From NCBI GenBank assembly GCA_017433295.1, contig JAFRHL010000038.1, positions 1 to 51,197 on the forward strand: a DNA stretch of 51,197 bases, read 5' to 3'. The DNA comes from Eubacterium sp. (GTDB lineage: Bacteria > Bacillota > Clostridia > Lachnospirales > Lachnospiraceae). Of the stretch, positions 39,363 to 51,125 are shown in pieces (the first letter of the stretch is position 1; each line of letters starts with the position of its first letter). A program made the position numbers and the translations under genes. The notes beneath the pieces are model-generated. The model made no database searches, was not told where the DNA came from, and saw nothing but the letters and a program-made list of their open reading frames with translations.

Positions 39363-39988
39363 TCACCAGCAAGCTGATTTGCGGAGACTGCGGCAGCACC
39401 TTTAAGCGGCACATGAATACGACCGGAAGCCAGAAATATCCGGTGTGGGTCTGCAAGCAGCACTTGGAGGATGTCGGTTCCTGCAGCATGAAATCTGTCC
39501 GGGAGTGCGATCTGGAAACCGCCTTCACGACCATGATGAACAAACTGATCTACGCGAAGAAGGCTGTGCTGGAAGGGCTGCTCGACGGGATACGGGGAGA
39601 AACGCATAAGGACAACCTGCGCCGGATCGATGCTATCGATCAGAAGCTGGAGCAGAATGTGGAACGGCGGCAAACCCTGACGACCATCATGACGCGGGGC
39701 TACCTGGACCCGGCGCTCTTCACGCAGGAGAGCAACGACCTCGCTGCCGAGGCGGATGCCCTGACAGCGGAAAAGGATCAGCTGGTGAAGGAAATCCCCG
39801 GCAGCCTCCACAAGACGGATGCGCTCAGCGACCTGATCCAGTATGCGGGCCATGCTCAGCCCAGCGCCTCCTTTGACGGAGCCCTGGTAGAGCGCTTCCT
39901 CGATCACGCGGAGCTGCCGACCAGAGATGAGGTCGTCTTCCACCTCAAATGTGGCCTGCGCCTGACAGAAAGGATTGGTGAAAAATGA
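39359..39988 (+). pseudogene. 5'-truncated large serine recombinase (C-terminal half)
   Basis: The reading frame opens at the junction with the LysR remnant as PFTSKLICGDCGSTFKR, the zinc-ribbon of a large serine recombinase. A coiled coil (ETHKDNLRRIDAIDQKLEQN, then a further helical stretch) and a C-terminal strand region ([18 protein letters not shown]) follow. The catalytic resolvase and central domains are absent. Its stop overlaps the next start by ATGA, the usual linkage in multi-recombinase cassettes. The first internal ATG is 39413, but expression is unlikely. Confidence 0.82.
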
Positions 39989-40407
39989 GCAGAGGACACA
40001 CACCTTACGGATACCGGATCGAAAACGGCATCGCAGTTGTTTGCGAGGAGCAGGCAGCACAGATCCGGAAGATCTACGAGGGATACCTTGGCGGCCTTTC
40101 CCTGAGAAACGCTGCAAAGGAAGCCGGGATTACCGCGACGCATTCTTCGGTGAAGCGGCTTCTGCAGAATCCCCACTTTCTGGGTGATGACTTCTATCCG
40201 GCGATCATCGACAGAGAGACCTTCGATGCCTTTGAGGTCGAGCGCCAGCGCCGGGAAGAAGCGCTGGGCCGGGATAAGCGGGAGAAGAAAACGGTGGAGG
40301 CCGTTCCTGCGCCGACTTCTTTCTGGATGGCAAAACCGGCGCAAACGTTCAGCGACCCATACCAGCAAGCGGAATACTTGTACAGCCTGATTGAAAAGAG
40401 AGGTTAA
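39985..40407 (+). CDS. Recombinase-domain protein lacking the catalytic domain
   Basis: This 140-residue protein begins [18 protein letters not shown]. It continues with [20 protein letters not shown] and [18 protein letters not shown], which is the central recombinase (DNA-binding) domain of large serine recombinases. The N-terminal resolvase domain with its catalytic serine is not there, and no break is seen at its start, so this seems to be a natural short form. It is coupled to both neighbours: ATGA overlap upstream, and its stop is one base before the next ATG. It may act as an accessory DNA-binding partner of the recombinase at 40409. Confidence 0.75.
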
Positions 40408-40408
40408 T

Positions 40409-41521
40409 ATGGCAACAGTGACAATGATACCGGCACGGCCTACGGTCGGCGCGAGAAAGAGAACAGAGGATGCTCCAAAGCTCCGGGTGGCGGCATACTA
40501 CCGTGTCTCCACGGAGACCGACGAGCAGGCAACAAGCTACGATGCTCAAATCGAGCACTACACCGATTACATTGAAAAGCATCCCGGCTGGGAACTGGCA
40601 GGCATTTACGCCGACGATGGCATCTCCGGGACCAACACGAAGAAGCGTGAAGAATTTAATCGTCTGATCGATGATTGCATGGCGGGCCGGGTGGACATGG
40701 TGGTTACCAAGTCGATCTCCCGATTTGCCCGTAACACCCTCGACTGCCTGAAGTACATCAGGCAGCTCAAGGACAAGAACATAGCGGTTTTCTTTGAGAA
40801 GGAAGCCATCAACACGCTGGATGCCAAGGGTGAGGTTCTGCTCACCATCATGGCATCCCTTGCCCAGCAGGAAAGCCAGAGCCTTTCCCAGAACGTCCGG
40901 CTGGGCCTTCAGTATCGCTACCAGCAGGGTAAGGTGCAGGTTTGCACGAACCGGTTCCTCGGATACGACAAGGACGAGGATGGCAATCTGGTCATCAATC
41001 CCGAAGAGGCCGAGGTGGTGAGGCGGATTTACCGGGAGTACCTCAGCGGCAAAAGCTACTACCAGATTGGGCAGGAGCTTTCCGCTGACGGCATCCGGAC
41101 AGCCGCTGGCAACGACTACTGGCTGCCGAGCACGCTTAAGAAAATCCTGAGCAATGAGAAGTACATCGGTGACGCGCTTCTGCAGAAGACCATCACCACG
41201 GACTTCCTGAACAAGAAGCGGGTTGCCAATAAAGGGATCGTTCCTCAGTATTATGTGGAAGGCAGCCACGAGGCCATCATTCCCCGCGAGCGCTTCATGC
41301 AGGTGCAGGAGGAGATGGTGCGCAGGGCCCGCCTTGAGACCGGCACCGGAAAGCGCCGGGTTTACAGCGGGAAGTACGCGCTTTCCCACCTTGTTTACTG
41401 CGCCAACTGTGGTGACATCTTTCGGAGAACGATGTGGTTTCTCAAAGGGGAAAACGTACCGGTATGGCGCTGCGTCAGCAGGTTGGAGAAAAAGAAGTCC
41501 GGCATCGACTGTCCGGCATGA
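40409..41521 (+). CDS. Large serine recombinase (catalytic, recombinase and zinc domains)
   Basis: The resolvase domain has the catalytic serine in AAYYRVST and the helix segment [14 protein letters not shown]. The recombinase domain ([16 protein letters not shown] ... [12 protein letters not shown]) and a zinc ribbon ([11 protein letters not shown] ... VWRC) follow. The frame ends early at TGA 41519-41521, right after SGIDCPA. The expected coiled coil and C-terminal segment continue in another frame from ATG 41518. The gene is therefore either frameshifted, with a small deletion, or expressed in two coupled pieces. The start is ATG 40409; 369 residues. Confidence 0.88.
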
Positions 41522-41886
41522 GGATGGCCGTGGAGATGGCACTCGCGCAGAGCAACGGACCTCGGGTGGCAGAGATCGATGCTCGGCTCGAAGCCCTGCA
41601 GAAAGAGCTTCTGAAGAAGGCCAACGCTAAGCAGGGGTTTGACGAGCTGGCTGACGAGATCGAAGATCTCCGGACGGATAAAGAGGCCCTTCTTCTGGAA
41701 GACGCCAACCGCCAAGGTGTGAAGCAGCGGCTGGACGAGCTCGAAGCCTTTCTGGAAGAACAACAGGAACCGGTGACGGATTACGACGAGGGTTTGGTCC
41801 GGAGGCTGATCGAGCGGATCACGGTTTACGACGGCTACCTTGCTTTTGAATTCAAATCCGGCCTTGAGACCGAAGTTCAGATGTAA
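41518..41886 (+). CDS. C-terminal coiled-coil piece of the split serine recombinase
   Basis: This 122-residue reading frame overlaps the previous stop as ATGA. It carries a coiled coil ([20 protein letters not shown] ...) and the typical tail [19 protein letters not shown], ending [13 protein letters not shown]. In intact relatives this is continuous with the zinc-ribbon part. The frame change probably arose by deletion, but the overlap would allow coupled translation. Confidence 0.65.
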
Positions 41887-41902
41887 ACACAACCATCACG
41901 CA

Positions 41903-41928
41903 GACGCTCCTCCGGGGGCGTCTTTTTT
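41903..41928 (+). terminator. Terminator of the recombinase cassette
   Basis: gacgctcc (41903-41910) and ggggcgtc (41915-41922) pair around tccg and are followed by six Ts. Confidence 0.88.
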
Positions 41929-42007
41929 ACGTTTGCAGGGTAGAAATCTGCCATAGACTGTGCTATACTTATCCAGTCATAGGTTGATATTTGAGAGAGG
42001 AAGTCAG

Positions 42008-42214
42008 ATGCTGCAGAACAACGTGGAAATGGATCTGAAGATGCGCCTGATCGAGAGCGGACAGACACAGACGGAGGTTGCGGAGAAACTTGGTGTATCC
42101 CTTTCCTATGTGAACCGAATTACCAAGGGCCGTGAGCAGATCGTCAACAAGACCTTTGTGAGGATGATGGACGAGCTCGGCTACGATGTGGAGTTGACAT
42201 ATAAGAAGAAATAA
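42008..42214 (+). CDS. XRE-family helix-turn-helix protein
   Basis: This 68-residue protein is made almost only of a helix-turn-helix: SGQTQTEVAEKLGVSLSYVN followed by RITKGREQIVNKTF. ATG 42008 has gagagga upstream; the longer reading from 41960 lacks a ribosome site. Small XRE proteins beside recombinases usually control excision genes or the element's own promoter. It has its own position after the cassette terminator. Confidence 0.82.
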   Translation: MLQNNVEMDLKMRLIESGQTQTEVAEKLGVSLSYVNRITKGREQIVNKTFVRMMDELGYDVELTYKKK

Positions 42215-42296
42215 TAGGCAGAAATGATTATCGCTTTGAGTTATTTAAATGAGCTGATTTTTTCTGCCGTGACATATTGAAAAAGAGGTAACTTAA

Positions 42297-43406
42297 ATGC
42301 ACAGAGTGTTTCGGAAGCTACATTTGGTAATTTTGGTATTGATAATAATGATTGTTCTGGCGGCTTGCTCTTCAACCTCGCCTGCGGAGTGTTCAGGTGA
42401 GACTTCATCTCCAGCTGATATTCCTTCCGGCGAAGGTTCATCAAATGAAGCACAGCCTGTGCGCAGCGCGGTGGATTTTGATCATGAGCTGGATTCGTAT
42501 GTGCCGCAGAAGGATCATTATAATTTCTATTTTACATATAAAACCGTGCATCCGTGGTGGGATGCTGTAGCACTGGGAATGGAAGAAGCCCAGAGACAGT
42601 TTCTGGATAAGGGGATTACTGTCACTTATGAGTATATGGCACCGGAAGGAGCTTCTGCCGATGATCAGACAAAACGGCTTCTTCAGGCTGAGCATAAGGA
42701 CTATGATGTGATTGGAGTCGATGTCGCGGACGAGGCGGTCATATCTCCCGTCATTGATGGGATGGTGGAATCAGGGACAAAGGTCATGACTTTTTCAAGC
42801 TCGGACGCATCCGGGGACTGTAAAAGGATCGCCTATGTTGGGAATACGCATAATTACGAAGACGGTGCTGACTTAACAGAAGCCCTTTGTGAAAAGTTGG
42901 AGTACAAAGGGAAGGTTGCAATTCTTGTAGGAAGTAAAGGTGCTCCGTGTCATGAAGATCGTGCCAGAGGTGCCAGGGACACGATTGCTAAATATAAGGA
43001 TATGGAGATTGTTGCCACGGAATATGATATGGACTCCGTTGATCTGGCATATGAGTTGACGCTAAAAATCCTTAAAGACAACCCGGATCTTGATGGCATT
43101 ATCTGCTGTAATATGAGTAATCCCGTAGGTGCAGCCAGAGCAATCAAAGAGACCGGCAGCAATGCTGTTATTGTGGGCATGGACCATGATCAGGAGGCGC
43201 TGCGTTATCTGGATGAAGGTATGATTTATTGTCTCGGGGTTCAGGATTGCTACTCTATCGGCTTTGATACACTTCAGGTTGCGGTAAAAATTGCTGATGG
43301 AAATCTGCCGGGAGAGTTGTTTCCGGAGAAAACCGATGAGATTACTACCATAATTTATCAGAAGGACGCGGCATTAATGCTTGAACTGCTGTATGGTGAT
43401 ATTTGA
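42297..43406 (+). CDS. Orphan sugar-binding-type (Peripla_BP_4) lipoprotein
   Basis: The signal peptide ends in the lipobox LAAC with Cys24. The 369-residue protein has the RbsB-like two-domain fold: FTYKTVHPWWDAVALGMEEAQ, VIGVDVADEAVISPVIDGMV, VAILVGSKGAP and GIICCNMSNPVGAARAIKE. No permease or ATPase gene is near. The gene is followed by a membrane GGDEF gene whose ATG overlaps its stop (TGATG). The likely role is to sense a small ligand outside the cell and present it to that enzyme. Ribosome site: agaggt. Confidence 0.88.
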   Translation: MHRVFRKLHLVILVLIIMIVLAACSSTSPAECSGETSSPADIPSGEGSSNEAQPVRSAVDFDHELDSYVPQKDHYNFYFTYKTVHPWWDAVALGMEEAQRQFLDKGITVTYEYMAPEGASADDQTKRLLQAEHKDYDVIGVDVADEAVISPVIDGMVESGTKVMTFSSSDASGDCKRIAYVGNTHNYEDGADLTEALCEKLEYKGKVAILVGSKGAPCHEDRARGARDTIAKYKDMEIVATEYDMDSVDLAYELTLKILKDNPDLDGIICCNMSNPVGAARAIKETGSNAVIVGMDHDQEALRYLDEGMIYCLGVQDCYSIGFDTLQVAVKIADGNLPGELFPEKTDEITTIIYQKDAALMLELLYGDI

Positions 43407-44906
43407 TGAAAAAAAAAACGCATTACAAATAGAACTTTTTTGCTGACGGCCGTCATTGGCAGTTTATTAATCATGGGCATGGTAACTGCCAATTCGATCT
43501 GGTCGTCAAATCAGACACGTCTTGAAACGGATGAAGCAGTTTCTGCGGTAAGCCGTTTTTATCTTGACACGATGGCAGATCGGCGTGCCCAGACAGTTTC
43601 TAATCAGATCAGCAATGAATTCAGCCAGATGGAAAAAGCGCTGTCCTTTATCCGTGATGAAAAAATCGAATCACAGGAAGAATTACGGGATACGCTCGGT
43701 AAAATAAAAAACCTGCTGTCGCTTAGCCGTTTTGCGCTGATAGATCAGGATAACACTGTATACACACAGTATACGACATATTCCGGCAGAAGCAGACACG
43801 AATTCTTATCGGAAGAAAAAATGAACGATCGCATTATCAGCACGGTTTCCCTTTACGGCTCTTCCAAACAGCTGTGTCTCGCCATTCCGACACCGAATCT
43901 TACGATCATGGGTAAGCCTTTTAAAGCATGCCTCATTCAGATAGACATTAAGGATATCATTGACCTGCTTGCGGTTGATGATCAGGGAAGAACATATTTT
44001 GCCTTATATTCGCAAAACGGAAGTAATCTGTCCGGAACGGAGCTGGGTCCGGTAATCTCAGGTCAGAATATATTTGACGCAACAAAGGGACTCGTTTCTG
44101 AAGATGTCTGGAAAGAGAATTACGATCATTTTGCTAACGATATAAGGGGAAGTATGACGTTTTCTTCCGGAGACGTCAAAGAAACGATGTGCTACGTTCC
44201 TATTCGGGATACGGGCTGGGAAATTGCCGTTCTGATTCATGAGAGCGTTATTCTGGATCAGATTCGCGACATCAGCGAGAAAAACCTCTCAACCAACAGA
44301 AATCAGATTGTGTTCACACTTCTCGCAGTGTTGATTTTTGCTGCTGTTCTTTTGCTGGAATTAAGGTCTTTATCCAAAGACAAACTTGATGCAGAAAAAG
44401 AAACCAGCAAGACTTTTCAAAATATGGCAAACACGGACTCCCTGACAGGTGTAAGAAACAAGCATGCATATTCCGAGTATGAAGGTGTTTTAAACCGGAA
44501 AATCCAAAATAAGGAAATACAGGAACTGGCTGTTGTGATGTGTGATATTAACGGTTTGAAATATATCAATGATACGCAGGGCCATGCAGCAGGCGACCAA
44601 CTGATTAAAGAAGCCTGCGCCCTGATTTGCGAATACTTCAAACATGGTGCGGTATTCCGAGTTGGCGGTGATGAGTTTGTGGTCATTCTACAGGAGAAGG
44701 GCTATGAGACAATGGATGAGGAAATTGGCAAACTAAATAAAAAGGTTGAGGCGAATATCAAAAATAACGGGATTGTTGTTTCGATTGGTTCTTCCGTCTT
44801 ACAGCCGGATGACAGTCAGCTGCACGATGTGTTTGCGCGAGCTGATCATATGATGTACGAACGGAAGAGTAAGCTGAAATCTATGGGCGCAAAAGCGAGA
44901 GATTAA
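43406..44906 (+). CDS. Membrane GGDEF diguanylate cyclase, 5' frame interrupted by an A10 tract
   Basis: After a membrane helix (LLTAVIGSLLIMGMVTANS) comes an extracytoplasmic sensor-like region of about 250 residues, a second helix (IVFTLLAVLIFAAVLLL) and a GGDEF domain. The domain has DSLTGVRNKHAY and an intact RVGGDEFVVIL, so c-di-GMP synthesis is expected. The natural ATG (43406-43408) overlaps the upstream stop, but the ten As that follow (43409-43418) shift the frame, which stops after eight codons. With nine As it would read MKKKRITNRTFLLTAVIG and go straight into the protein. The open frame as given begins with TTG 43440 and has no ribosome site. Confidence 0.82.
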
Positions 44907-44930
44907 TATAAGGAGTTTTACCCATCCTCG

Positions 44931-45009
44931 ACATGTTCCCGTGACCGTAAAAATACGCTGACATGTTCCCATGCGCGAGAAAAATAGTATCGATGTTCTT
45001 TTCGCAAAG
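44931..45009. repeat. Three degenerate direct repeats, 30-base period
   Basis: acatgttccc occurs at 44931 and 44961 and a weaker cgatgttctt at 44991, exactly 30 bases apart each time. The parts following each also resemble one another (cgtaaaaat, cgagaaaaat). Such spaced repeats are found as transposase-binding sites at ends of IS21-like elements or as iterons. No transposase gene is next to them. Confidence 0.55.
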
Positions 45010-45048
45010 TGGATGTGCGTGCTCGGGAGTATCTCTATGTATAAGCAC

Positions 45049-45096
45049 GACTCGTGCCATGTCGAGACCGTAGTACTGCTGTCAAAGAAAAAATAG
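45049..45096 (+). pseudogene. Second 3' tail of an rlmD-like gene
   Basis: The codons read DSCHVETVVLLSKKK then TAG, matching HSCHVESVVLMS at the end of rlmD (37420-38820) with many synonymous differences. Nothing upstream (45001-45048) is methyltransferase-like. The terminator at 45122-45171 follows as it would after a real gene end. It is probably the displaced original tail of rlmD, or a tail carried by an integrated element. Confidence 0.7.
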
Positions 45097-45121
45097 TAGC
45101 AGGCTTCAGAAGGCTTGAATT

Positions 45122-45176
45122 CAAGGGATTCTTTGGAAATGACCATTTTTGGTTTGCTTCGAAGAATCCCTTTTTT
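45122..45176 (+). terminator. Terminator after the displaced rlmD tail
   Basis: aagggattctt (45122-45132) and aagaatccctt (45161-45171) are perfect 11-base arms followed by a T-run. Confidence 0.82.
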
Positions 45177-45301
45177 GACGTTTTGATAGTAGTTCTGACC
45201 ACTAAAAAAAACGAAGGCGAGGCTGAACAACTATTGTCATAGGGGTGGGAGACTATAGAACTATTGTCACAAAAAAGTGCTATGATATGGTCTGTAGGTC
45301 T

Positions 45302-45354
45302 GATAGACTAATAAACAGGTGAGCATAAATATCACGATTGATATATAGTCTATC
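45302..45354. repeat. Inverted repeat in front of the truncated recombinase
   Basis: gatagact (45302-45309) and agtctatc (45347-45354) are perfect inverted copies. The right arm abuts the ribosome site cggagg. Upstream, aactattgtca occurs twice (45228 and 45262). The set could be an operator or part of an attachment site; no other gene lies in 44907-45366. Confidence 0.5.
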
Positions 45355-45366
45355 GGAGGAAACTTA

Positions 45367-46158
45367 ATGGAATTCAATCCAAAGGTCAATGTCATTCCGA
45401 CATTCAAGAATAGTCTTGGAGTGAAAAAAGTAGGAATCTATGCCAGGGTCAGCACGGCAAGGGTAGAACAGCTACGTAGTCTTGCCGCGCAGGTATCTGC
45501 GTTGTCACAGTATGTATATCAAAGAAATGATATGATAATCAGGGATATCTATATGGATGTTGGTTCAGCGAAGATCGGCTCCAGTAGGAGAGAGTTTTCA
45601 CGACTGCTCGAGGATTGCCAGAATCGAAAGGTGAATTACGTGGTCACGAAGAGCATGTCACGTTTCGGAAGGGATACAGTAGAAAGCGTGGAATCTATTC
45701 GCTTGCTTCAAGAAGCCGGAGTGACCATCTTTTTTATGCTGGAAGATAAAGAAGTTACAAAGGACACACCTGAATTTGATCTGTCAGTAAGAGCGGCGAT
45801 CATGCAATCCGAGAATGAGCACCGAAGTGAGAATATCAAAATTGGACTTAGACAGAAAGCTGAACTCGGAACTAGCGGATTATACTCAAAGCCCTGTTAT
45901 GGGTGTGTGAAAGATGAAAACGGTAGTCTGGTTCCGAAAGTTTATCAGGCCACAGTTGTTCAGCATATATTCCAGCTGTATCTGGAAGGAAAGAGTGAGG
46001 CTGCGATCATAGAGGATCTGGCAGAGCGGAAGATCCCAACCGTCAGGGGGAAGGAGAGATGGAGTAAGAAAGCGATCGAAACGATCCTGACAAAACCCAG
46101 TATCTTCGATTTGCTACAAACACATCCTTTCACCCCCTGCTTTAGTGGAGGGGGGTGA
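45367..46158 (+). CDS. 3'-truncated serine recombinase
   Basis: This 263-residue product has a full resolvase domain (GIYARVSTARVEQLRSLAAQ, VTKSMSRFGRDTVESVE) and most of the recombinase domain (KPCYGCVKDENGSLVP ... RWSKKAIETIL). Then the frame runs into unrelated GC-rich DNA (after about TKPSIFDLLQ) and stops. The zinc ribbon and C-terminal coiled coil are missing, so it is about half the normal length and probably inactive. Base composition is more AT-rich than in the other recombinases of the window, which points to a different origin. Ribosome site: cggaggaaa. Confidence 0.8.
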   Translation: MEFNPKVNVIPTFKNSLGVKKVGIYARVSTARVEQLRSLAAQVSALSQYVYQRNDMIIRDIYMDVGSAKIGSSRREFSRLLEDCQNRKVNYVVTKSMSRFGRDTVESVESIRLLQEAGVTIFFMLEDKEVTKDTPEFDLSVRAAIMQSENEHRSENIKIGLRQKAELGTSGLYSKPCYGCVKDENGSLVPKVYQATVVQHIFQLYLEGKSEAAIIEDLAERKIPTVRGKERWSKKAIETILTKPSIFDLLQTHPFTPCFSGGG

Positions 46159-49655: not shown

Positions 49656-51074
49656 CTACTCGTTGTGCCTTTCCTTTTGGCGGAGGCTTTTCTGTGCTTC
49701 AGCCAGTGCCTTTTCCGCCGCTTCGAAGCGGGCAAACATCTCATCGGAGCGTTGCTGGTAATCAGTCTGATCCTGCGCTACCCGCGCGTTCTGGTCGATA
49801 AGCTCCTGTAGCAGTTTGCCCGTCACCGTCCGCTCGTTATCCAGCCGTGCGATTTCCGCTTCAAGATCTTCTGTGCCGCCAAGCTCCGCCTGTACCTCGC
49901 GGAGGTTTGCGATTACCTCCTGTCGAATCGCCAGCAGCTTGTTCACCGCCTTGATGAAGCCCTGCTGGATTTCTTCTTCGGTCAGGTGCGAGGTCTTGCA
50001 GCGATGGCCGCCCCACTTGCTGTTGCACTGCCAGACTGTCCGGCGGTACCTGGCGTCCTTGCTATGCCAGACCTTGGGGCCGTACATCTGACCGCAGTCG
50101 CCGCAGAAGATTTTCGCCGAGAAGATGGTACCGCCGCTGGCGTGGCAGTTCTTGCGCCGCTCGATCTCTTCCTGTACCCGCCTGAACGTCCGCGCCGGGA
50201 TGATTGCCTCGTGGCATCCTTCCACATACACTTGCGGGACCTGCCCCTCGTTCTTGCGGCGGGTCTTGTCCAGGAAGTCGTTGGAGTAGGTCTTCTGCAG
50301 GAGCTTGTCGCCCATGTAAGTCTCATTCGACAAAACCCGCTTGATGGTGAGGTCGTTCCACCTGGGCTTGCCAGCCGGGGACGGGATGCCGTCCTCCGTC
50401 AGCTTTCTGGCGATGGCGTAGGGAGACATACCCGCGAGGAAGTCCCCGTAAATCCTGCGGACGACTTCCGCCTGTGCCTCATTGATGACCAGCCCGCCGT
50501 CGGATCCCTTGTCGTAGCCAAGGAAGTGCTTGTAGTTCAGGCTGAACTTGCCGTCGCTGATTTTCTTCCTCTGGCCCCAGCGCACGTTCTCGGAAATGCT
50601 CCGGCTTTCTTCCTGCGCGAGGCTGGACATGATGGTCAATAAAAGCTCGCCTTTGGAGTCAAAGGTCCAGATGTTCTCTTTTTCAAAATAGACCTCGGTG
50701 CCATGCTCCTTCAGTTCCCGGATGGTGGAGAGCGAATCCACCGTGTTCCTGGCAAAGCGGCTGACCGACTTGGTGACGATGAGGTCGATTCTTCCAGCCA
50801 AGGCGTCTGCCACCATCTGCTGGAAGCCCTCGCGGTGTTTGGTGCTGGTCGCCGAGATACCCTCGTCAGTGTACACCTTCACAAATTCCCAATCATCCCT
50901 GCCCTGGATATATTCGGTGTAGTAGCTCACCTGCGCCTCGTAGGAGCTTTGCTGTTCCTCCAGTTCCGTTGAGACGCGGGCGTAGCCAGCCACCTTCCGT
51001 TTTGCCTGCGCCGCTATCGGAGCGGAGGTTGCGCGGTTGATGGTGGCGGGGATGATTCTTACTTTCTGCGCCAT
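49656..51074 (-). CDS. Large serine recombinase, ended early by an amber codon
   Basis: The product has 472 residues up to TAG 49658-49656, but about 523 if the stop were read. The resolvase domain has the catalytic serine in GYARVSTELEEQQSSYEAQ and VTKSVSRFARNTVD. The recombinase domain is NYKHFLGYDKGSDGGLVI. The zinc ribbon is FCGDCGQMYGPKVW ... VWQC, and a coiled coil (about 395-470) follows. ATG 51074 is taken since ggagga lies seven bases upstream. It may once have moved the macro/SirTM island, which lies just downstream on the same strand. Confidence 0.9.
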   Translation of the reverse strand: MAQKVRIIPATINRATSAPIAAQAKRKVAGYARVSTELEEQQSSYEAQVSYYTEYIQGRDDWEFVKVYTDEGISATSTKHREGFQQMVADALAGRIDLIVTKSVSRFARNTVDSLSTIRELKEHGTEVYFEKENIWTFDSKGELLLTIMSSLAQEESRSISENVRWGQRKKISDGKFSLNYKHFLGYDKGSDGGLVINEAQAEVVRRIYGDFLAGMSPYAIARKLTEDGIPSPAGKPRWNDLTIKRVLSNETYMGDKLLQKTYSNDFLDKTRRKNEGQVPQVYVEGCHEAIIPARTFRRVQEEIERRKNCHASGGTIFSAKIFCGDCGQMYGPKVWHSKDARYRRTVWQCNSKWGGHRCKTSHLTEEEIQQGFIKAVNKLLAIRQEVIANLREVQAELGGTEDLEAEIARLDNERTVTGKLLQELIDQNARVAQDQTDYQQRSDEMFARFEAAEKALAEAQKSLRQKERHNE

Positions 51075-51125
51075 GTCAGCTTCCTCCGAATTCACGGTGA
51101 CAGGCACTGTGAACCCCAATGCCAT

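Follow-up and report, generated by a model that had tools for sequence, protein, structure and literature searches.

An A10 tract sets the start codon of a diguanylate cyclase gene out of frame

The window, i.e., the whole stretch of 51,197 nucleotides that was analysed, carries on its forward strand a substrate-binding lipoprotein gene (42297..43406, 369 aa) and, directly downstream of it, the open frame of a membrane diguanylate cyclase (43410..44906). The lipoprotein matches Peripla_BP_4 (Pfam PF13407, E 5.4e-47) and its lipobox, LAAC, can be read directly in the translation. The downstream protein matches the GGDEF domain (PF00990, E 4.9e-26, residues 340-488) and its hydropathy predicts two membrane helices flanking an outer sensor region of about 270 residues. 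A GGDEF motif, two predicted membrane helices and a binding-protein gene directly upstream are therefore all present in this pair.

The two genes meet in a single base. The TGA of the lipoprotein gene (43404-43406) and an ATG (43406..43408) have the A in common, and the ATG is followed on its 3' side by an uninterrupted tract of exactly ten As (43409..43418). The frame opened by this ATG closes after eight codons at a TAG (43430-43432; whole frame 43406..43432). The GGDEF frame is out of register with the ATG. It starts directly after another TGA, at 43407-43409, and contains 498 codons with no stop up to 44906, so that its body is intact. At A10, the length of the tract sets the reading frame, as it would at a contingency locus. 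The earlier note on this DNA had described the ten As behind the stop-overlapping ATG and the closure after eight codons, and had calculated that nine As would lead straight into the protein. Reading of the sequence confirmed each of these details, and the arithmetic is correct. No known RNA family was found at the tract, and a scan of positions 41800-45400 for promoter-like and terminator-like sequences gave nothing decisive (promoter-like, 7 against 6.7 expected; terminator-like, 8 against 3.2 expected).

Orthologs start in frame at the junction and have no A9 run

Full-length orthologs of the cyclase gene were collected by protein search (n = 18), comprising L003, L010-L015 and eleven loci from a search of the family, in which 12 of 397 genomes matched, one of them being the window's own genome. 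A short match (L016, 32% over 156 residues), six weaker loci (L004-L009) and the window's own copy (L002) were left out. Only one of the 23 other genomes of the genus (G016) has an ortholog, indicating that the distribution of the gene pair is patchy. The upstream binding-protein gene was found at all 18 ortholog loci, partial where a contig ends. Each of the 18 has an ATG or GTG in the cyclase frame that coincides with, or lies close to, the stop codon of the binding-protein gene, no more than 12 bases from the aligned start. This supports the ATG at 43406 as the true start, as the earlier note had assumed.

The longest A run near the ortholog start is eight bases in the nearest relative (L010, 85% identity) and four to seven in the other 17, and a run of nine occurs in none. 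The tract is thus not kept in related species, and the idea of a conserved slippery element was rejected. The combination expected of programmed transcriptional slippage, a slippery run with an equal frame break in the homologs, was likewise not found among the 18 orthologs, since all of them are in frame. The nearest relative reads A8-G-A3 at this place, in frame, and is two bases longer than the window in the alignment. Upstream of the aligned basic codon, L003 and L010 have twelve bases and L011-L015 nine, each in frame. On the sequences compared, the tract appears specific to the window's lineage and likely originated in two steps, with an interrupting base lost first and a slip occurring afterwards; the relatives are compatible with an ancestral length of either nine or twelve bases. 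No second allele of the species was found in genome contigs (nearest, 85%), viral contigs or plasmids, a collection that may lack the closest records to the genome of the window; no copies of the locus were found in plasmids or viral contigs. An ortholog in another genus (L049, G377:C46:583-2076) is interrupted by a TAG after about 90 codons, its GGDEF gene being intact in all other respects, so the cyclase gene can be lost elsewhere too.

The gene body has remained under purifying selection

Private changes were counted in a trio made up of the window, L010 and L011. The GGDEF gene of the window has 20 nonsynonymous and 33 synonymous private changes, compared with 25 and 54 in L010 and 46.8 and 83.2 in L011. 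Without constraint, 2.5-3.4 nonsynonymous changes would be expected per synonymous change, and neutrality of the window's GGDEF branch was excluded (P 4e-7 or less). The 95% upper bound on the unconstrained share of this branch is 0.17-0.25 across three transition weights. The window's gene does not differ from its orthologs in private counts (p 0.75). The upstream gene has 9 nonsynonymous and 40 synonymous private changes in the window, against 20 and 33 in the GGDEF gene (Fisher p 0.047), and the higher nonsynonymous share of the cyclase gene is a weak hint of an earlier relaxation of constraint.

The GGDEF motif is kept, and these counts indicate purifying selection on the gene body until nearly the present. 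An old pseudogene was therefore rejected, given 498 stop-free codons and the constraint in the private changes. The marks of a pseudogene, lost constraint and further stops or frameshifts, were not found in the cyclase gene, of whose branch up to a quarter is possibly unconstrained. Loss of the frame must therefore date from late on the branch, or be confined to part of the population or to the assembly.

The position of the tract is rare

In dinucleotide-preserving shuffles of the window, an A10 run alone is expected 0.33 times and was present in 19 of 100 shuffles, and the expectation for ATG followed by A10 is 0.01. As A10 arises so often by shuffling, the tract alone is unremarkable and its position is remarkable. 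It is the only run of at least nine As or Ts in the window. Genome-wide (2.9 Mb in 56 contigs), there are 20 distinct A or T runs of at least nine, of which three reach at least ten.

In a survey of 24 genomes of the genus, 32 places, spread over 15 genomes, have ATG followed by A9 (reversed control, 7); 30 of the 32 places were read and the remaining two had no locus. Four are clear in-frame gene starts (L053, L054, L060 and L080) and L057 is perhaps a fifth; of the others, three lie in frame and three out of frame within longer frames, while the remaining places lack a long frame. Across 397 genomes of the family, 27 places, distributed over 26 genomes, have TGATG followed by A9 (control, 5), and all 27 were read. 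Besides the window, only one of them (L090) has a long gene, of 229 codons, that ends in the overlapping TGA, and the gene that follows its TGATG and A9 is in frame. Gene starts at these places were called by the length of the open frame and by eye, without gene annotation. On these calls, we judge the window to be the only out-of-frame gene start among the 27 places of the family and the 30 of the genus.

Several candidates for further off-frame genes were rejected. The ATGs of L066, L072 and L077 are out of frame inside longer open frames; further downstream, L106 carries an ATG of its own, accompanied by a ribosome-binding-site-like AAGGAGG; L107 and L101 are part of longer frames or sit at their ends. 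A similar non-coding stretch, in which ATG is followed by ten or eleven As and GAGGAAATA..., is present in three genomes of the genus (L070, L079 and L063, near 1500; G000:C22:146191). The tract within it varies in length (A11, A11 and A10), and a search of this stretch against Rfam gave no match at gathering score.

A recent slippage allele is the preferred explanation

We favour the explanation that the window holds a recent slippage 'off' allele of a conserved two-gene sensor, with the frame of an otherwise intact gene broken by A10, and give it a probability of roughly 0.57. The pair would form a sensor in which an extracytoplasmic sugar-type binding lipoprotein works with a membrane diguanylate cyclase translated from the overlapping start. 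The lysine codons that follow the start would, in the window's lineage, have turned into an uninterrupted A run, a G being retained in the nearest relative, and a replication slip would then have set the run to ten and out of frame. Ribosomes leaving the lipoprotein gene would restart at the ATG at 43406, read eight codons and terminate, and cells with the ten-A sequence may consequently make little or no full-length cyclase. As the remainder of the gene is both intact and under constraint, the change is probably recent. The tract may also undergo reverse slippage, which would make the allele potentially reversible. The slippage event, the order of its steps, its reversibility and the loss of protein are what we infer from the comparison of the alleles and frames.

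This type of mutation is already known from other bacteria. The closest case is inlA of Listeria monocytogenes (Orsi et al. 2010, PMC2831843), which likewise has a poly(A) tract at the 5' end of its coding region. As described there, the off allele of inlA ends after 8 amino acids, as the eight-codon frame of the window does, and in-frame relatives have a G-interrupted form, A2GA4, comparable to the A8GA3 of L010 here. Rates of about 5.5e-7 for A6 to A7 and about 3.9e-8 for A7 to A6 are given for inlA, with no detectable change in the G-interrupted form. The equal pattern, the hypermutability and the stable G-interrupted form of the inlA tract support a slippage allele in the window. The two cases differ in gene and species and in a tract of six or seven As against ten; in addition, both length polymorphism and the rates of reversion have been determined for inlA, whereas the tract of the window is known from one assembly.

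An error of assembly or consensus, with the tract in frame in the cells and the gene on, is unlikely. It would agree with the intact and constrained body and with the in-frame start of all 18 orthologs, and the genome is a draft of 56 contigs with about 91% completeness. However, at least three long open frames in the same genome continue intact across A9 runs (L028, 785 codons; L033, 562; L039, 511), and none of its 55 GGDEF matches contains a stop, which argues against a general homopolymer problem and is silent on the A10 site itself. If the tract proves not to vary, the case would be a useful warning: automated annotation would assign a TTG start here or report a pseudogene, although the body is intact and constrained and the break sits in a hypermutable (or mis-assembled) run.

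The earlier note had read the tract as a slipped-strand switch that may make c-di-GMP output phase-variable. Slippage in the homopolymer stands as the likely cause of the break; the switch itself finds no support here: the tract is not conserved and no second allele was found. We consider it quite unlikely that this is a selected contingency locus, in which the tract is retained because the cyclase switches on and off at a high rate. The tract does sit directly behind the start, where a shift switches the gene fully, and a constrained body lies behind the off frame. Poly(A) tracts are enriched at the 5' ends of prokaryotic genes, according to Orsi et al. (PMC2831843), and c-di-GMP genes of Clostridioides difficile are reported to be phase-variable through DNA inversion (PMC9286219, PMC6837544). 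The latter give clonal on/off variation in a Firmicute, as could apply here, but by inversion of upstream DNA, where the window would, if at all, use a homopolymer in the coding region. Against such a locus, none of the 18 orthologs has such a tract, the other ATG and A9 places of the genus that start genes are in frame, no length variation was seen, and one isolated tract in one genome matches the expectation from drift. A sugar-sensing cyclase, in an uncultured bacterium of Lachnospiraceae type, that varies by slipped-strand mispairing, so that clone-mates differ in whether an outside sugar signal is turned into c-di-GMP, is likewise a quite unlikely proposal. Should the tract vary, one c-di-GMP input of a gut-type Firmicute would be under simple on/off control by a coding homopolymer. 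In the open-access literature searched, slipped-strand switching of GGDEF genes led only to work on P. aeruginosa, in passages that deal with intergenic tracts and c-di-GMP redundancy, and for Lachnospiraceae with phase variation and homopolymers nothing on the topic appeared by title and start of abstract. The cyclase at 43410..44906 is one of many in its genome, in which 55 GGDEF matches in 2.9 Mb are a large number, several frames having two domains; with so many, the large effect on c-di-GMP output suggested by the earlier note is doubtful.

It is very unlikely that the ten-A allele is tolerated because slippage of RNA polymerase or ribosome, or downstream reinitiation, yields enough full-length or nearly full-length protein. 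The constrained gene body would fit this. Slippage at A or T runs of about nine takes place in many bacteria and repairs the reading of some broken frames, and it is strong on nine As in Thermus dnaX, as reported by Baranov et al. (2005, PMC1088944); the genes with A9/T9 transcriptional slippage discussed there likewise have a run slippery for some RNA polymerases and an open frame beyond it. In their programmed cases, though, the run is kept in homologs, while the run of the window is not conserved (0 of 18 orthologs), and RNA folding in the region of the tract is unexceptional (z -0.45). Rescue would also require a net change of -1 or +2 bases, and on the poly(A) runs examined with E. coli reporters in PMC6260861, deletion slippage was not detected and insertion was slight. 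Strong rescue is therefore not expected from the transcriptional slippage, with a mixed population of messages, that the earlier note had raised, although other polymerases slip more.

Translation from the TTG at 43440..43442, the alternative start proposed earlier, or from the ATG at 43473, which would make the tract irrelevant, is scarcely credible and was rejected: both codons are in the GGDEF frame, the TTG eight bases past the TAG, but both lie within the first membrane helix, the start is conserved at the junction in all 18 orthologs, the codon aligned with the TTG is Leu, Val or another residue of the helix and is no start in several orthologs, no Shine-Dalgarno-like sequence is seen by eye 5' of the TTG, and the product would be without the conserved basic N terminus.

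Serine recombinase genes on both sides of the gene pair

Similarity between the window and the ortholog loci ends at or near the gene pair (left, at 41851 or from 42285 to 42471; right, from 44889 to 44912), and neighbourhoods thus differ between species within the flanks compared. Serine recombinase genes matching Resolvase and Recombinase lie around the pair at 40391-41521, 45367-46158 and 49656-51125, with partial matches at 39413-40407. In the first of these (window 40391-41892), the frame is lost near the zinc ribbon, as if a piece were missing, and a frame at 41434-41886, which has no Pfam match, resembles by eye the C-terminal coiled coil of the 40391-41521 recombinase. The resolvase gene at 45367-46158 is cut short within the Recombinase domain, and its last residues, HPFTPCFSGGG, look by eye like a repeat read in frame.
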